From IMG/VR virus record IMGVR_UViG_3300000127_000006, positions 7,378 through 27,898 of that record: 20,521 nt of DNA. The stretch is one strand, 5' to 3'. This document shows positions 10,971 through 18,938 of the stretch, piece after piece (the stretch's first letter is position 1; the number at the start of each line of letters is the position of its first letter). The notes under the pieces were generated by a model. It had not been told where the DNA came from. It did not search any database and was given only the letters and a program-made list of their open reading frames with translations. A program made the translations under genes and the position numbers. Source of the DNA: a virus.

Positions 10971-11543
10971 ATGGCAAACCAAAAAAACGTACTGAATAGC
11001 ATTCGCACTTTGCTTGGTATGGAGTCAGAAATAGAATTGCTTGCAGAAGCAGTTTTAGAGGATGGCACACGTATCGGTACAGAAAGCGATGAATTTGCAG
11101 AAGGTGTAATGGCTTATGTTGTTTCAGAAGATGGCGAAAAAATGCCTTTACCATCCGGTTCTTATGCTACACAAGATGGTGTATCTATGGAAGTTGTAGA
11201 TGGCGAAGTAATTTCAATTTCTAAAGTGGAGGTCGTAGAAGAGGCTGAATCTGAGGATAAAAAAGAGGAAGAAGAAATGTCCTCTAAAGTTGATTTGTCT
11301 GCATACGCTACTAAGGAACAACTTGTAGAAGCATTAGGAACACTACACACAGAATTATCTGAAATGATTTCAAAGGTTGTTTCTGAAAATGAGTCTTTAA
11401 AACAAGACTTAGAAAAAGTGTCTAAAATGTCTGCCGAGAAACCGGTAACACATAATCAAACAAATCTTTCAACAGAAGAAGTATCTTATAATACGGGTAA
11501 CAAAGCCTTAGATATGATTCTACAATTAAAAAGCGCAAACTAA
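10971..11543 (+). CDS. Capsid scaffolding protein
   Basis: The 190-residue, highly acidic product is placed directly before the major capsid gene, overlapping it by one base (TAATG at 11541-11545). The first 85 residues form a small beta domain with the Gly/Asp pattern 'LEDGTRIGTESDEFAEG' ... 'DGEKMPLPSG' ... 'DGVSMEVVDGEVISI'. A Glu-rich linker follows (EEAESEDKKEEEE), then a coiled coil about residues 110-152 (EQLVEALGTLHTELSEM ... SENESLKQDLEKV), and a C-terminal segment ending 'NKALDMILQLKSAN' that would contact capsid protein. This resembles scaffold proteins of Bacteroidota siphophages and is a likely substrate of the adjacent protease. The beta domain and coiled coil are read by eye; the scaffold role is supported by context. 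Confidence 0.7.
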   Translation: MANQKNVLNSIRTLLGMESEIELLAEAVLEDGTRIGTESDEFAEGVMAYVVSEDGEKMPLPSGSYATQDGVSMEVVDGEVISISKVEVVEEAESEDKKEEEEMSSKVDLSAYATKEQLVEALGTLHTELSEMISKVVSENESLKQDLEKVSKMSAEKPVTHNQTNLSTEEVSYNTGNKALDMILQLKSAN

Positions 11544-12559
11544 TGAACAAGAATTATAACTTTAAATCAGCGAAGTACGAATTGGCTACCGATATTGCTA
11601 TTGGTGCAAATTCTTATGCTGGAGTGTTATCTCTACCTTACTTAGCACCAGCCGTTAAATTGGCTGAAACAGTAGCTAACGGATATGTAACGGAATTAGA
11701 TGGTATTACTTTAAAAGCAGTAGTAAATACTCTAACACCAGGTACAATGATTAAGGCAGCCGGATGTGATTGGGATAATGACCCTACAACTTTATCACTT
11801 GGCGAATCAGTATTAGAAGTTACTGATATGATGGTGAATGAAAGAGTATGTCGCAAGACTATTTACCCAACGTGGGTAGGTGCTGGATTTAGTGGTCGTA
11901 ATGGTGCTATACCAGCTGACTTTGCAACGTTCTTAGTAAGTACAGTAGCTAATAAAACGGCTGAAGAATTAGAGAATAGAATTTGGAAAGGTGGAGCATC
12001 ACCAACATTCAAAGGTTTCTTATCTAATGATGGTGTATTTGATAGAACCGGATTAGCAGCAGGTCAAATGGCTATTGGTGGTGGAGTAAATGGTCAAGCT
12101 ATCACGGCTATTACTGCATTAAATGTAGTTGCTGGTTTTGGTTTAGTTTACGCTAACGGAAATACAAATTGTCCAGGTATAATTGGTAAGGCTGATACTC
12201 AGTTTTTAGTTAACCAAAAGACTTTTGGTTTATATATGCAAGCTTTAGGTGAATCCGGTCTTTTACAAGGTGTGAATTTACAAGGTGCTAACCAAACATT
12301 TACATCTTTAGTATACTTAGGTATTCCGGTGAATGTATGTCCAGGTATGCCAGATGATGCAATTATCTTATGTCAAAAATCTAACTTATTCTTCGGAACA
12401 AACTTAGGAACAGATATGACAGAAGCTAAATTAATTCCATTCTACGAGTATGATGGTTCTGACAATGTTGGTATCTCAATGAGAATGGCCGTAGGTGTTC
12501 AAATAGGTGTAGCATCTGATATTGTATTAGGTACAACAGCAGCTATTTTACCAGCTTAA
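11543..12559 (+). CDS. Major capsid protein (HK97 fold)
   Basis: The 338-residue protein is the probable shell subunit. It is glycine/alanine-rich and neutral. Key stretches are 'GANSYAGVLSLPYLAPAV' (22-39) near the N-terminal arm, 'YPTWVGAGFSGRNGAIPADF' (108-127), a central helix 'LVSTVANKTAEELENRIWKG' (130-149) typical of the long spine helix region, and a C-terminal 'NVGISMRMAVGVQIGVASDI' strand set. There is no N-terminal delta domain because the scaffold is a separate gene. The scaffold before it and the tail tube gene after it fit this call. The initiating ATG overlaps the scaffold stop, suggesting translational coupling. No signal peptide is present. Confidence 0.75.
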   Translation: MNKNYNFKSAKYELATDIAIGANSYAGVLSLPYLAPAVKLAETVANGYVTELDGITLKAVVNTLTPGTMIKAAGCDWDNDPTTLSLGESVLEVTDMMVNERVCRKTIYPTWVGAGFSGRNGAIPADFATFLVSTVANKTAEELENRIWKGGASPTFKGFLSNDGVFDRTGLAAGQMAIGGGVNGQAITAITALNVVAGFGLVYANGNTNCPGIIGKADTQFLVNQKTFGLYMQALGESGLLQGVNLQGANQTFTSLVYLGIPVNVCPGMPDDAIILCQKSNLFFGTNLGTDMTEAKLIPFYEYDGSDNVGISMRMAVGVQIGVASDIVLGTTAAILPA

Positions 12560-13879: not shown

Positions 13880-15880
13880 ATGAGTGAATTATTACAATTA
13901 GGTAGAGGACACGAATACGTAGATGATACAGAGGTAATAAAGCAAGGTGAACCCTTTGTATCTTTTGGTAAAACAAATGATTATCCGGATTTTCTTATAA
14001 ATTTATACCAAAAATCAGCAGTTCACAACGCACTTTGTAACTCTATTGCAACGTGGGTGTATGGTGAGGGTATAACAAGTCCACAAATGCAAGGTAAATC
14101 CGAATCTTGGGCTAAGTTTAATGCCTTATTTGAGGGTGGTATAGGCAAGAACACTATACAAAAGTGTATTTTAGATTTAAAAGTACACGGAGGGTATTAC
14201 CTTTCTATATCATATTCATTAGATAGAAGTACAATAAGCGAAGTAAACCACATACCATTTGAGTGTATGAGGGTAGAACCGGAAATAGATGGTGAAGAAA
14301 GCCAATTTTACTTATATTCTAAGAATTGGGCAGATTACAAGACAGTTGGTTTCAAAAAGGTTAAATCCTTTGACCCAAACGAAAAGAAATCATATCCAAA
14401 TCAAATAGCTTGTTTTAAGGCTTATTCAGTAGGGCAATACTATTACCCAAAGCCGGATTATCAAGGAGGTATAAATTACATTGAATTAGATAAAAACGTA
14501 TCAGAGTTTCATTTAGCTAATATCAAGAATGGTTTAGCACCATCTTTTATGATTAATTTTTCTAATGGTATTCCATCAGAAGAAAAGCGTAGAGCAGTTA
14601 AAAACCAAATAGAAGAAGAATTATCCGGTGCAAGTAATGCCGGTAAATTTATAGTATCATTTTCAGATGATAGAAATAATTCCCCCGAAATAACTGTAAT
14701 GCCTCAATCGGATGCAGACAAACAATATGAATTTCTTAGCCGTGAAATAACATCTAAAGTGATGATTTCACACAGGGTAGTTTCACCAAGATTGTTTGGA
14801 GTAAATGCCGATGGGGGTGGTTTAGGTAATAATGCAGAAGAATTAAAAACTGCATCAGTTTTATTTGAGGAAAACGTAATTGATAATTACAGAGATTTAT
14901 TGACTGAATCTTTTGAATTAATAATGTTTGAAGCTGGGCAACCAATCAAATTAGATTTCATCTCTAAAAATCCATTTGAAGAAGAAGTAGTTGATGAAGA
15001 AGTTATAGAAGAATCACCAACGGGAGATACAGAAGAAGTGGTTGTAGAGGATAAAGATGTAGAGCAAGTAGAGGCATCATATAACGGGGCGCAAATTAGT
15101 TCAGCTATTGATATTATAGCAAAGGTACAAGAGGGTGTTTTAACGGAAGCGCAAGCGATTGTATTCCTTATTCAGTTCTTACAATTACCGGAACAAGTTG
15201 CAAGAGGTTTCTTTTCAGATAGTCCAGAAGAATCATTTGCTAAGTTATACGCATCTAAACACACTTTAGAAGTTAACGAAGTAGATATGTCTGATGAAGA
15301 TGAAAATACTTGGCTTGAATACTTAGCTGATAAGGGTGAACAAGTGAATACTGATGAATGGGAGTTATTAGAAGAAACAGAGGTGTTAGATGCCGAATTA
15401 GAAGCTGAGACACATAACACACCATTTAACTTTTTTAAGCGTTACGCAGACCCTAACGATAAGTCTAAGGTAGATAAAGGTCTATACAAGATACGCTATA
15501 GATATTCAGAAAATATATCTAATGATAGCCGTTTGTTCTGTAAAAATATGGTATCAAACGCTAAGATGGGTGTATCATATAGGTTTGAGGATATAAACGA
15601 AATGTCAGCTGATGGAATTAATGGAGAATTTGCAGAACGTGGCAAATCCAAATATTCGATTTGGTTATATAAGGGAGGCTGCTACTGCCATCATAAATTT
15701 ATCCGACAAGTTTGGTTCAGAAAAAGAGTAAAAGGTAAGTTCTTACCAAATGAAGGGTTAGATAACGATAAAGATGTTACAAATCAAGAACCAAAAGGTG
15801 CTGGATTAAGGAACGCAAGAGGTTGGAAAAAAGCAAATACACGAACAATAGATTTGCCTAATCGAGGTAAAGTAAATTAA
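13880..15880 (+). CDS. Portal protein with C-terminal Cys/His-rich MuF-like domain
   Basis: The 666-residue product contains the phage portal in its first ~370 residues: 'AVHNALCNSIATWVYGEGI' (47-65), 'KVHGGYYLSISYS' (100-112), 'HIPFECMRVEP', 'SREITSKVMISHRVVSPRLF' (286-305) and the loop/stem signature 'GLGNNAEELKTASVLF' (314-329). The portal forms the dodecameric ring through which DNA is packed. A Glu-rich linker (EEEVVDEEVIEE) follows, then a middle helical region and a C-terminal domain from about 515. That domain has 'YKIRYRYSENISNDSRLFC' with Cys554, 'YRFEDINEMS', and 'GGCYCHHKFIRQVWF' (Cys601, Cys603, His604, His605). It resembles minor capsid MuF/gp7-like domains that ride with portals. 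The fused domain may bind zinc. It ends in a basic segment. The portal call is firm, the MuF-like label tentative. Finding it 13.6 kb after the terminase is unusual. Confidence 0.75.
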   Translation: MSELLQLGRGHEYVDDTEVIKQGEPFVSFGKTNDYPDFLINLYQKSAVHNALCNSIATWVYGEGITSPQMQGKSESWAKFNALFEGGIGKNTIQKCILDLKVHGGYYLSISYSLDRSTISEVNHIPFECMRVEPEIDGEESQFYLYSKNWADYKTVGFKKVKSFDPNEKKSYPNQIACFKAYSVGQYYYPKPDYQGGINYIELDKNVSEFHLANIKNGLAPSFMINFSNGIPSEEKRRAVKNQIEEELSGASNAGKFIVSFSDDRNNSPEITVMPQSDADKQYEFLSREITSKVMISHRVVSPRLFGVNADGGGLGNNAEELKTASVLFEENVIDNYRDLLTESFELIMFEAGQPIKLDFISKNPFEEEVVDEEVIEESPTGDTEEVVVEDKDVEQVEASYNGAQISSAIDIIAKVQEGVLTEAQAIVFLIQFLQLPEQVARGFFSDSPEESFAKLYASKHTLEVNEVDMSDEDENTWLEYLADKGEQVNTDEWELLEETEVLDAELEAETHNTPFNFFKRYADPNDKSKVDKGLYKIRYRYSENISNDSRLFCKNMVSNAKMGVSYRFEDINEMSADGINGEFAERGKSKYSIWLYKGGCYCHHKFIRQVWFRKRVKGKFLPNEGLDNDKDVTNQEPKGAGLRNARGWKKANTRTIDLPNRGKVN

Positions 15881-15883
15881 GAT

Positions 15884-18073
15884 ATGGAAGCTATACAATT
15901 CACAGAAGCAGAAAGAATATGGAGTGAAACTACCTTAGAATTAGGTACAATCGCTAAGTCTTTAATGGGTAACCAAGAAGAAGTTACAGCCGGTAATTTT
16001 ATTGGTACTCAATTAGTAGAAAACCCAAATTTTGACCAAAATATACCTGGAGATAGTTCACCGGTATTAGGGAATGAATTAGTACAGAATGGAAGCTTTG
16101 AAGAAATAGGTACTGATTTAGTTACTAATGGTGATTTCTCTGATGGGGAAACCGGTTGGAATTTTAATTCAAATTGGTCGGCTCCTGCTGGTACAGCAAA
16201 TGCAGATGGAACATCTAATGCAGATATAAATCAAGGTACAACGCTTGCAGTAGTAGGGAAATCATATAAAATAATTTATGAAGTTGTTAGTATATCACAA
16301 GGGGAATTTTTCTTTAAGTTTGGTGGTGTAAATGGCACACTTAGAAATGAAATTGGTGTATTTACTGAGATAGTAAAAGCAGTAAACACAAATAGAATTT
16401 CTTTAGATGGTAATTATAATGTTATTGGTTCGGTAACCAACATCTCTGTACAACAACTTGACCCTAACGATTATTGGACACTTGGAACAGGGTGGATTAT
16501 TGGAGAGAATGAGGTAGTAAGAGAGGGTGCTACTGGAAATAGTCAAATAACCCAATCTATAAGTATAGAAGCTGGTAGCACTTACATTATATCTTATACA
16601 AGAAGATATATTTCGGGCGATGGTCAAACAAACTTTTACTCTGAGTTTATAACAGATGGAGTAAGTAAAACTTTAGGTAATTACGATAGTCAAGTTCAAG
16701 AAAGCGTTGTAGTTACAGACCAATTCAGACCTACATATTCGGGTAGTCTAAATTTACAGCTTTATGGCATAAGTACGTTTAACGGCTCTACAACCAACAT
16801 CTCAGTAAAACAAATTATTGCAGTTGATGTAGACTTGTGGACAACCAGAGTACCTAACATTGAAAGTTCTGTTAAATTTACAGAGGGTAAAGCTACTATT
16901 GATTATGATTCAGATGGTACACCACAAGGTGAGTGTGGAATAAACCAAGTTATATTATCAGTAGGTAAGTTCTATAATGTAGAAGTTGATTTTAAATTAA
17001 TTACCGGAACTGCAAGATTATATTGTGGTAGTAATTTTGTTACACTTACGGGAACAGCAAAAAGAACATACTCTTTAAGATGTGAAGGAACATCAAAACT
17101 AAGTATTGTTAGAAGTAGTAATACAAGTGACACTAAAATAGAGTTGTATTCTGTTAATGCTTACGAATCAACTAATTTAGTTGTAAATGGTACGGGTTCT
17201 GATAGTGTTGGATTGAGTGGTAATTGGAGTGTTAATAATTCAACTATTGAAAGTGATACTATTAATGGTGGTATTAATGTGACATTAACGGATTCAATAG
17301 GTTTTATTGGTCAAACAATATCGACAGTCATAGGAACTGAATATAGGTTATATGTAAAAGGTACTTTTGGTGATGTAAGTTCTTTTGCTGCTTGGAATGC
17401 TATAACGGGTGGCGCATCAAGCATATCAACAGATGGTGTGTCTTTTATAGATTTTACTGCAACTGGCACTACAACTGTAATTAGGACTTATGTTAGTGGT
17501 TCAGCTGGTCAATTTATAAATGTTACTGATATAAATTGTTCACCTACAACACCATTTGATTTAGGTTCAAATTGGGATTTACAAGCTGGTACGGGATTAG
17601 TTGCAAATGGGTATGGTAACAACAATGCAGTAGAGTCATTTACTGCCGTAGCTGGTCAAACATACCGAGTTGAATATAAAGTATCAAGCTATACACAAGG
17701 TTCTGTTAGAGTACAAATAGGTGGTACTAATGGAACGGCAAATGCAAGTGTAGGTACTTTTGTAGAAAATTTAATTGCAACCAATACCGGTGATATAGAT
17801 ATACAAAATGTACAAGTAGGAGGTCTTAACTTTATAGGTGTAATTGATTACATTAAAATACAAAGTGGCGAGCAATCTGATACGTTAGATATGACAGACC
17901 AAGACCCAAAAGCGATATGGATTACCGGAGGAGGTAATTTAAAAGTAACAGATATGTCCGGAACAACCAGCACTATTAATAATTTACCAAACGATAAGTT
18001 TATTGATTGGTTAAGAATTAGAAAAATATGGTTAACCGGAACAACTGCAACGGGTATTAAAGGAATTTACTAA
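15884..18073 (+). CDS. Head-spike protein: spike-base domain split by tandem carbohydrate-binding-like modules
   Basis: The 729-residue product has an N-terminal helix (2-30: FTEAERIWSETTLELGTIAK) and a C-terminal domain (about 669-729: AIWITGGGNLKV ... DWLRIRKIWLTGTTATGIKG). Both match the neighbouring 96-residue protein. The C-terminal domain matches the pattern of the RCAP_rcc01079 spike base family (GG.L.V....G......P....l.lr...i.aTGTTAt.i..lY), known from gene transfer agent head spikes. Between them lie about five beta-sandwich modules: roughly 64-192 (LVTNGDFSDGETGW), 193-312 (WTLGTGWIIGENEVV), 313-427, 428-553 (NLVVNGTGSDSVGLSGNW) and 557-660. They look like carbohydrate-binding jelly rolls; the first and last are clearly related (SQGEFFFKFGGVNGT with TQGSVRVQIGGTNGT). 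It probably projects from the capsid and binds a host glycan. Ligand and fibre symmetry are unknown. It could alternatively be a tail spike, but the family and connector neighbours favour the head. Confidence 0.65.
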   Translation: MEAIQFTEAERIWSETTLELGTIAKSLMGNQEEVTAGNFIGTQLVENPNFDQNIPGDSSPVLGNELVQNGSFEEIGTDLVTNGDFSDGETGWNFNSNWSAPAGTANADGTSNADINQGTTLAVVGKSYKIIYEVVSISQGEFFFKFGGVNGTLRNEIGVFTEIVKAVNTNRISLDGNYNVIGSVTNISVQQLDPNDYWTLGTGWIIGENEVVREGATGNSQITQSISIEAGSTYIISYTRRYISGDGQTNFYSEFITDGVSKTLGNYDSQVQESVVVTDQFRPTYSGSLNLQLYGISTFNGSTTNISVKQIIAVDVDLWTTRVPNIESSVKFTEGKATIDYDSDGTPQGECGINQVILSVGKFYNVEVDFKLITGTARLYCGSNFVTLTGTAKRTYSLRCEGTSKLSIVRSSNTSDTKIELYSVNAYESTNLVVNGTGSDSVGLSGNWSVNNSTIESDTINGGINVTLTDSIGFIGQTISTVIGTEYRLYVKGTFGDVSSFAAWNAITGGASSISTDGVSFIDFTATGTTTVIRTYVSGSAGQFINVTDINCSPTTPFDLGSNWDLQAGTGLVANGYGNNNAVESFTAVAGQTYRVEYKVSSYTQGSVRVQIGGTNGTANASVGTFVENLIATNTGDIDIQNVQVGGLNFIGVIDYIKIQSGEQSDTLDMTDQDPKAIWITGGGNLKVTDMSGTTSTINNLPNDKFIDWLRIRKIWLTGTTATGIKGIY

Positions 18074-18083
18074 AACAGATAAA

Positions 18084-18374
18084 ATGGCAGCACTTACAGA
18101 AGAACAATTAAGATGGTCGCAAACAACAACACAGCTGGGTAATGTATCTAAATCTTTAGATGCAGAATTTAGCGATAGCGTTGATTTGTTAGATAAAGCA
18201 CCTAAAGGTGTATGGATACAAACGGGTGGTACTTTAAAAGTCGACTTAATGGGTGGTACAACTATAGAAATAGAAAGTGTACCGGATGATACTTTTATAG
18301 ATTGGCTTAGAATTAAAAGAATTTATGCAACTGCAACGGGTACTGAAGTTAGTAATGTAACCGGAATATATTAG
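18084..18374 (+). CDS. Small spike-base-like capsid protein (RCAP_rcc01079-like), paralogue of the head spike
   Basis: The 96-residue product aligns end to end with the two terminal parts of the preceding 729-residue protein: 'LTEEQLRWSQTTTQLGNVSKSL' with its N-terminus, and 'PKGVWIQTGGTLKV' ... 'DDTFIDWLRIKRIYATATG' ... 'GIY' with its C-terminus. It lacks the modules in between. It therefore represents the bare base domain. Proteins of this family attach to the capsid surface, in gene transfer agents at the vertices, and carry spikes. This copy may form a plain vertex cap or a mixed complex with the long form. Protein similarity is obvious but the DNA is diverged, so the duplication is old. 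It starts 10 bases after the upstream stop and ends 3 bases before the connector gene. Confidence 0.65.
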   Translation: MAALTEEQLRWSQTTTQLGNVSKSLDAEFSDSVDLLDKAPKGVWIQTGGTLKVDLMGGTTIEIESVPDDTFIDWLRIKRIYATATGTEVSNVTGIY

Positions 18375-18377
18375 CCT

Positions 18378-18938
18378 ATGAATGCACAAGTATTATTTAT
18401 AGACAGCGATTATATAAAAGCCTATTCACAAGTAGGTGGTAATGTAGATGAAAAATACTTTTTGTCTGCAATACTTACGGCACAAGATAAGTATATACAG
18501 CCGATTCTTGGAACTAATTTGTTTAAAGACATACAAGCTAACATAGATGACTTGAGTGCAGCCAATACAAACTATCCTACACTTGTGAATGATTATATTC
18601 GTATGTGTACAATGAGATGGTCTTTGGTAGAATTATATCCGTATTTATCTAACAAGTTATTGAACAGTTCTATTAGTCAAGTATCCGGTGATAATGCTAC
18701 ACCTATATCTAAAGATGAAGTAGATTCTTTAATTAGCTTAGAGCGTAATAATGCACAATTTTATGCTGAACGGATGATAGACTATTTGCAAGCGAATACA
18801 AACCTATATCCTAAATACAATAGTATTGCATCAGCTGACCAAATGCAGCCAATGTATTCAGCTTATTATGAGAATGGACTAACTATAAGTGGTGGAGCGA
18901 ATAGAAATTGGCTTAACAAAATAAATTGTTGTAAATAA
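18378..18938 (+). CDS. Head-tail connector (adaptor), DUF6712-like
   Basis: The 186-residue, mostly helical protein has 'LFIDSDYIKAYSQVGGNVDEKYF' at the start, then 'ILTAQDKYIQPILGTNLFKDIQ' (32-53), 'YIRMCTMRWSLVELYPYLSNKL' (73-94), 'LERNNAQFYAERMIDYL' (121-137) and 'LYPKYNS'. This matches the small connectors of Bacteroidota phages (DUF6712-like, gp6/gp15 adaptor type), which add a ring below the portal. The helices around the 'I.aaQ..yI.piLG..ly..l' segment are the diagnostic part. Its closeness to the portal and spike genes supports a head-completion role. It is separated from the small spike-base gene by 3 bases and overlaps the next tiny gene by one base (TAATG). Confidence 0.65.
   Translation: MNAQVLFIDSDYIKAYSQVGGNVDEKYFLSAILTAQDKYIQPILGTNLFKDIQANIDDLSAANTNYPTLVNDYIRMCTMRWSLVELYPYLSNKLLNSSISQVSGDNATPISKDEVDSLISLERNNAQFYAERMIDYLQANTNLYPKYNSIASADQMQPMYSAYYENGLTISGGANRNWLNKINCCK

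Follow-up and report, generated by a model that had tools for sequence, protein, structure and literature searches.

Why does a marine phage carry two neighbouring genes, one of which looks like the other with some 630 residues built in, and what might such a pair make on the virion? The two open reading frames lie in the stretch of viral DNA analysed here (the window; 20,521 nucleotides, positions 7378-27898 of the 27.9-kb viral record IMGVR_UViG_3300000127_000006). Both are open and on the + strand, at 15884-18073 (729 aa) and 18084-18374 (96 aa), and their products are referred to below as the armed and the bare base. The answer that we consider fairly likely is a head spike on the capsid whose base polypeptide includes the glycan-binding arm, accompanied by a bare paralogue of the base.

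Locus, shared ends and base domain

The genes of the locus, and the parts of the armed base that are common to both proteins, are as follows.

11543..12559, + strand: candidate major capsid protein (context; phrog_11320, E 6e-16; phrog_1623, virion structural protein)
13880..15880, + strand: portal protein gene (context; stop at 15880; phrog_33693 portal, E 2e-66)
15884..18073, + strand: armed spike base gene, 729 aa, with N-terminal arm, modules and C-terminal base domain (ORF; NF048002)
15884..15973, + strand: N-terminal arm, residues 1-30, common to the bare paralogue (alignment against shuffles)
17867..18070, + strand: C-terminal spike base (Rcc01079-type) domain, residues 662-729 (NF048002; phrog_12296, E 2.5e-7)
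18084..18374, + strand: bare spike base paralogue, 96 aa (NF048002; fold match to 6tb9)
18378..18938, + strand: DUF6712 gene (context; start at 18378; PF20459, E 1e-17)

The portal, armed base, bare base and DUF6712 genes are tightly packed, with gaps of 3, 10 and 3 bases. The DUF6712 gene probably encodes the head-tail connector, and the product of 11543..12559 is probably the major capsid protein, as judged from its position and size. Along the record the genes are aligned in the order terminase, tail genes (one tape-measure-like), protease, capsid, portal, spikes, connector and M15 peptidase, a tail-before-head order opposite to that of most siphophages. By portal, the nearest isolated relatives, at only 29% identity, are P12024S/L, Nonlabens phages of marine Flavobacteriaceae; the host of this tailed phage is probably flavobacterial, a guess from these relatives. 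The portals of the window and of two related contigs, L003 and L007 (L007, 2767-4875), are more than 80% identical except for residues ~370-460, which are wholly unlike: L003 and L007 carry there a segment of ~100 aa (GGTEVGVARARDISNGKNLS...FSWASKKI) and the window an unrelated, shorter one.

The initial annotation had claimed that the two products share both ends and that the insert splits a base domain. The C-terminal domains are 50% identical over 70 residues (E 3e-19), with an alignment score of 182 against a maximum of 64 among 2000 shuffles. The N-terminal segments, TEAERIWSETTLELGTIAKSL in the armed and TEEQLRWSQTTTQLGNVSKSL in the bare base, score 61 against a maximum of 56 among 5000 shuffles, and in each of three phage pairs (the window and two related lineages) the arm alignment outscores every one of 5000 shuffles. 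The sharing of both ends thus holds, and, since it is also found in related contigs, the pairing is no coincidence of one assembly.

The claim of a split domain holds in part. In Rcc01079 of RcGTA, the N-terminus attaches to the capsid and is followed by a six-stranded jelly roll (PMC7296036). In the armed protein the arm is followed by modules, and the base picks up at residue 665 with 'SDTLDM'; in the profile match, position 21 aligns with residue 19 of Rcc01079, the conserved 'SDS.DL' being located at the same place in both. The insert (residues about 31-661, ~630 aa) is thus situated between arm and jelly roll. Modules and base form one polypeptide, with the binding-type part inserted between two base segments as had been proposed, but the jelly roll itself is uninterrupted and the insert lies beside the folded domain. 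By analogy, residues 1-30 would be the counterpart of the capsid-binding N-terminus of Rcc01079.

The assignment to the Rcc01079 type was confirmed by profile for the C-terminal domain and the 96-aa protein, and by fold for the latter. Against NF048002 (NCBIfam; spike base protein, RCAP_Rcc01079 family; 85 model positions, curated cut-off 28 bits), residues 665-729 of the armed protein score 39.2 bits and the bare protein 32.2 bits, both over the cut-off, as are the counterparts in L003 and L007. The family trait of being a small stand-alone protein is true of the 96-aa protein and false of the 729-aa protein; the latter is described as containing a base domain and not as an ordinary family member. 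In the PDB, a profile of 22 base sequences detected the RcGTA head spike base, 6tb9 (Rcc01079; E 7e-7), as well as 8cjz (E 7e-5), another entry deposited as 'Spike Base Protein'. A single-protein phmmer search gave 6tb9 at E 0.27, which is not significant, while the profile and fold searches were significant; tblastn with the 96-aa protein as query gave no matches among phage records. The AlphaFold model of the bare protein is of moderate confidence (pLDDT 69). In the Foldseek comparison with Rcc01079, which had been recommended at the outset, 6tb9 was its sole match under E 0.001 (5.9e-4, probability 1.00, TM 0.60/0.68), and by VIA 6tb9 was found at Z 9.2 (rmsd 3.4 over 76 residues), the next match being at 5.2. 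The six-stranded jelly roll as in 6tb9 is thus supported by the model of the bare protein, the base domain that was compared by fold. Further down the VIA list is the archaeal turret protein A223 of STIV (Z 4.8). By phmmer and PHROG the bare base was also weakly similar to an SGNH-esterase protein of 1090 aa (9cod, phrog_7697); this similarity was absent from the profile search and was discarded.

The slot between the portal and connector genes would also be apt for a neck protein, PHROGs and several GenBank records name the family 'tail fiber protein', and the jelly roll is a common fold. On these grounds the armed protein might be a neck or tail appendage with a borrowed base jelly roll, the bare protein alone being located on the capsid. 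We consider this quite unlikely, because Rcc01079, the solved relative of known location, is found on capsid pentamers (PMC7296036), the armed protein shares its N-terminal arm with the bare base, and the 'tail fiber' label is attached even to RcapNL gp29, from a phage with a reported rcc01079 match. By analogy with Rcc01079, both the armed and the bare base would instead be situated at capsid vertices as pentamers.

Modules of the armed protein and their exchange

The insert consists of about five beta-sandwich modules and a stretch of ~48 aa with extra 'LV.N..F' stubs.

15974..16117, + strand: linker with 'LV.N..F' stubs, residues 31-78 (sequence; 62% identical to L003)
16118..16471, + strand: module M1, beta-sandwich (similar to ZHS_9; replaced in relative L014)
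16472..16825, + strand: module M2, beta-sandwich, CBM4/16/22-like (structure matches Z 9-11, low-confidence model)
16826..17173, + strand: module M3, beta-sandwich, CBM29/CBM86/CBM11-like (structure matches Z 9-10)
17174..17560, + strand: module M4, without counterpart in the 609-aa relative (alignment gap, 124 columns)
17561..17866, + strand: module M5, the most conserved module, adjoining the base domain (78% identical to L003)

Of the initial annotation's five beta-sandwich repeats, fold and motif stand but clear sequence repetition does not, no mutual resemblance of the modules being detected by self-BLAST at E<=1. M1 is similar to ZHS_9 of the Edwardsiella phage vB_EpM_ZHS (28.7% identity over residues 62-194, E 1e-13), a module protein that aligns also with M5 and weakly with M2. 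Overall, AlphaFold modelled the 729-aa protein poorly (pLDDT 53.6, pTM 0.28), the best-predicted stretch being residues 361-430 in M3 (pLDDT 68-83). In this low-confidence model, residues 193-435 match the carbohydrate-binding modules (CBMs) CBM4, 16, 22, 29, 86 and others at Z 9-11, the matches of M2 spanning residues 193-312 and those of M3 residues 313-435; most of the best 50 VIA matches are CBMs or CBM-bearing enzymes (Z 9-11). No module was over any Pfam cut-off. The best curated CBM score was that of CBM31, PF11606 (whole protein, E 0.0019 and 18.8 bits, cut-off 25; M5, E 0.0064, below the cut-off). The likeness to CBM families, for which a structural comparison had been suggested, is thus suggested by the low-confidence fold of M2 and M3 and does not reach the Pfam thresholds. 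Cry/Vip proteins ranked high in Foldseek with the long model, but at TM <0.2; these matches were read as CBM-like beta-sandwich domains in common, not as a sign of a toxin.

A comparison of close relatives revealed where the modules change. The DNA of L003 and L014 is 96.4% identical over the portal end and the first 85 codons of the armed gene, followed by ~710 nt without blastn similarity and then by 82.5% identity from M3. At the protein level, identity is 100% for the arm, 96% for the linker, 37% for M1, 32% for M2 and 75% for M3. The DNA similarity between L014 and the window ends at the same point (residue 85), and the window carries one module more (M4) than L003. As read from these alignments, the M1-M2 cassette is swapped between near-identical phages with sharp borders, the arm and the next module being kept. 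Receptor-binding proteins such as phage tail fibres exchange their outer modules and keep their ends, and the M1-M2 exchange would be behaviour of this type. In another contig, L143 (1-1109), 99.6% DNA identity to L003 through the portal end and M1 gives way abruptly to unrelated, podovirus-looking genes; the switch lies near the contig end and represents either an assembly chimera or module-mediated recombination.

Glycan binding by the modules is suggested by their fold and by analogy. Given that no module passed a Pfam threshold, and that meprin and ephrin-receptor domains of the same beta-sandwich fold are included in the match list, the modules could alternatively be spacers of an Ig-like or structural kind, or have proteins or other phage particles as ligands. 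This seems unlikely to us, because most structural matches are carbohydrate-binding modules, the cassette is swapped between close relatives with the flanks retained, and the fibre that fills this role in RcGTA binds capsular polysaccharide (PMC10218006).

The armed and bare pair among related phages

Portal and connector searches detected more than 80 related contigs. An armed base followed by a bare base was located between portal and connector in the window (729 aa), L003 and L004 (609 aa), and the same slot of L023 and L024 contains a bare base behind an armed one of 209 aa with a single module. The inserts at the same site in the three lineages measure about 110, 510 and 630 aa. All complete armed loci seen (3 lineages) also contain the bare paralogue, and its retention beside the armed copy suggests that both are needed. 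In other relatives the slot contains one bare base alone (L020, L022, L031, L096-L101), a base and, behind it, a separate fibre-like protein of 545 aa (L032) or nothing (L025, L029, L033), and in six contigs (L035, L059, L103, L106, L107 and L109) a bare base is located further downstream, beside a phosphoesterase-like gene. The 402-aa ORF behind the base in L035 and L059 was considered as a fibre and rejected, its sequence reading as a metallophosphoesterase. On the portal tree these slot states are intermingled, indicating turnover of the slot. The base tree unites every armed and bare copy from armed phages in one clade (99/98), within which the bare copies group together (93/94); the single clade indicates one old duplication before the lineages split. 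Among 101 genomes of Armatimonadota the domain was found in 10, in all ten cases in short frames of 90-124 aa.

In RcGTA, base and glycan-binding part are separate proteins, in agreement with the initial annotation: one fibre (Rcc01080, GhsB) is attached to each base pentamer (Rcc01079, GhsA) via a Leu/Ile-Gly peptide in the pentamer pockets (PMC7296036). No such N-terminal plug peptide was detected in the sequence of the armed protein, and no other ORF of the 27.9-kb record has either of two plug patterns. Bare-only relatives are likewise without a plug fibre recognisable by the two patterns, several of these records being partial. A plug fibre in bare-only phages and none in armed phages would have separated the groups, but the test did not discriminate, neither group having one by these patterns. 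Since the plug is missing in both alike, its absence is no proof that the fusion replaced it.

Plug-like starts were observed elsewhere. In an Armatimonadetes contig (L115, 5941-8035), a base gene is followed by three successive proteins with the similar starts KLGSGIGVP, KIGSGIGVP and KLGQGIGLP, as if several alternative fibres use one base. In L032 (8689-10653), the 545-aa protein behind the 108-aa base has a module beginning with LVENGDF. Its N-terminus, MINVIQNTIGALARR, is plug-like and resembles that of elemo gp40, MFISIANAIGVNR; this may be the form that the plug takes in Bacteroidota.

Known spikes and a proposed assembly

The locus resembles the RcGTA spike in the base jelly roll (score, profile and fold), in the N-terminal arm before it and in the glycan-binding-type partner. 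It differs in that base and fibre are two proteins in RcGTA, whereas the modules here lie inside a second base copy and no plug peptide was found. Pairs of base and plug fibre were identified in isolated phages, including RcapNL (gp29/gp30), Verrucomicrobia phage P8625 (gp23/gp24) and vB_EpM_ZHS (ZHS_8/ZHS_9), with a variant plug in the Flavobacterium elemo phages. The gene directly after the base gene ZHS_8 encodes ZHS_9, a free-standing protein of 141 aa that begins with MIGLGLNIW, and RcapNL gp30 (MGLGLGIGLGLS...) and P8625 gp24 (MIGLGLDLS...) likewise come after base genes. These pairs have the base domain in common with the window, and the LV.NGDF-type module is found also in ZHS and RcapNL, but they consist of two genes, with one base copy and a downstream fibre carrying an N-terminal GLGLGL-like plug. 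The ZHS_9 and RcapNL pairs thus indicate that a module type bearing the plug peptide elsewhere is here built into a base. In PHROGs and GenBank/RefSeq, the base family (phrog_12296, RcapNL gp29, P8625 gp23 and elemo gp41 of L118-L120) is labelled 'tail fiber protein', despite the solved spike base on the capsid; a probable fibre gene adjoins.

Other capsid protrusions are similar in part. The HFTV1 turret is also a two-part protrusion of base and glycan-binding-type head, composed of a base hexamer and a head trimer with a galactose-binding-like domain (PMC12494034), but it belongs to an archaeal virus, is located on hexamers and is made of separate proteins, the trimeric head having a deacetylase-like domain. 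Decoration proteins of the T4 Hoc and T5 pb10 type, thought to help host adhesion, likewise combine a capsid-anchoring part and beta-sandwich modules in one polypeptide (PMC7602432). Their anchoring fold is different, and Hoc is a monomer at hexamer centres. To our knowledge, these anchors are without a bare paralogue.

We propose that the two genes encode paralogous head-spike base proteins of a tailed phage. Each would grip the capsid by its N-terminal arm, and the small jelly roll of each would form a pentameric collar at the vertex, as Rcc01079 does in RcGTA. In the armed copy, ~630 residues of tandem CBM-type modules would make the receptor-binding arm a covalent part of the collar, a separate plug-in fibre not being required, and the arm would most likely bind a host surface glycan for first, reversible attachment. 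As a speculation, one collar may contain both armed and bare subunits, with space for one or a few arms left by the bare ones. We put forward tentatively that the vertices of the capsid bear such mixed pentamers and that the number of arms at each is set by the armed:bare ratio. Just as tentative is the idea, raised in the initial annotation, that each kind of base assembles into homopentamers of its own, on different or contested vertices, the expression ratio of the two setting the spike number. The retention of arm and jelly roll in both proteins agrees with separate homopentamers, and the bare paralogue in all complete armed loci of the three lineages fits the spike-number idea, but five arms of 630 residues would presumably crowd one collar. 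The evidence presented here does not separate homopentamers from mixed pentamers.

The system is a variant of a known head-spike system, the parts of which have sound sequence and fold support, while the assembly is a specific hypothesis. No paper on such a base-module fusion was found in the open-access literature, a limited indication that the fusion is new. Tailed phages and gene transfer agents use head spikes for first contact, and these devices are under-studied. The locus shows that base and glycan-binding part, which are distinct proteins in RcGTA and the isolated phages examined, can form one polypeptide with a bare copy beside it. Many small phage 'tail fiber' proteins may be head-spike bases with the receptor-binding gene adjoining. 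If the proposed assembly is true, the 5:1 mismatch between base and fibre, solved in RcGTA by the plug peptide, would be met here by gene duplication and by insertion of modules between arm and jelly roll. Close relatives provide a natural series in one slot, from a bare base through a base with separate fibre and a one-module arm to an arm of four to five modules, so that how a pentameric collar bears fewer receptor-binding arms becomes directly testable.
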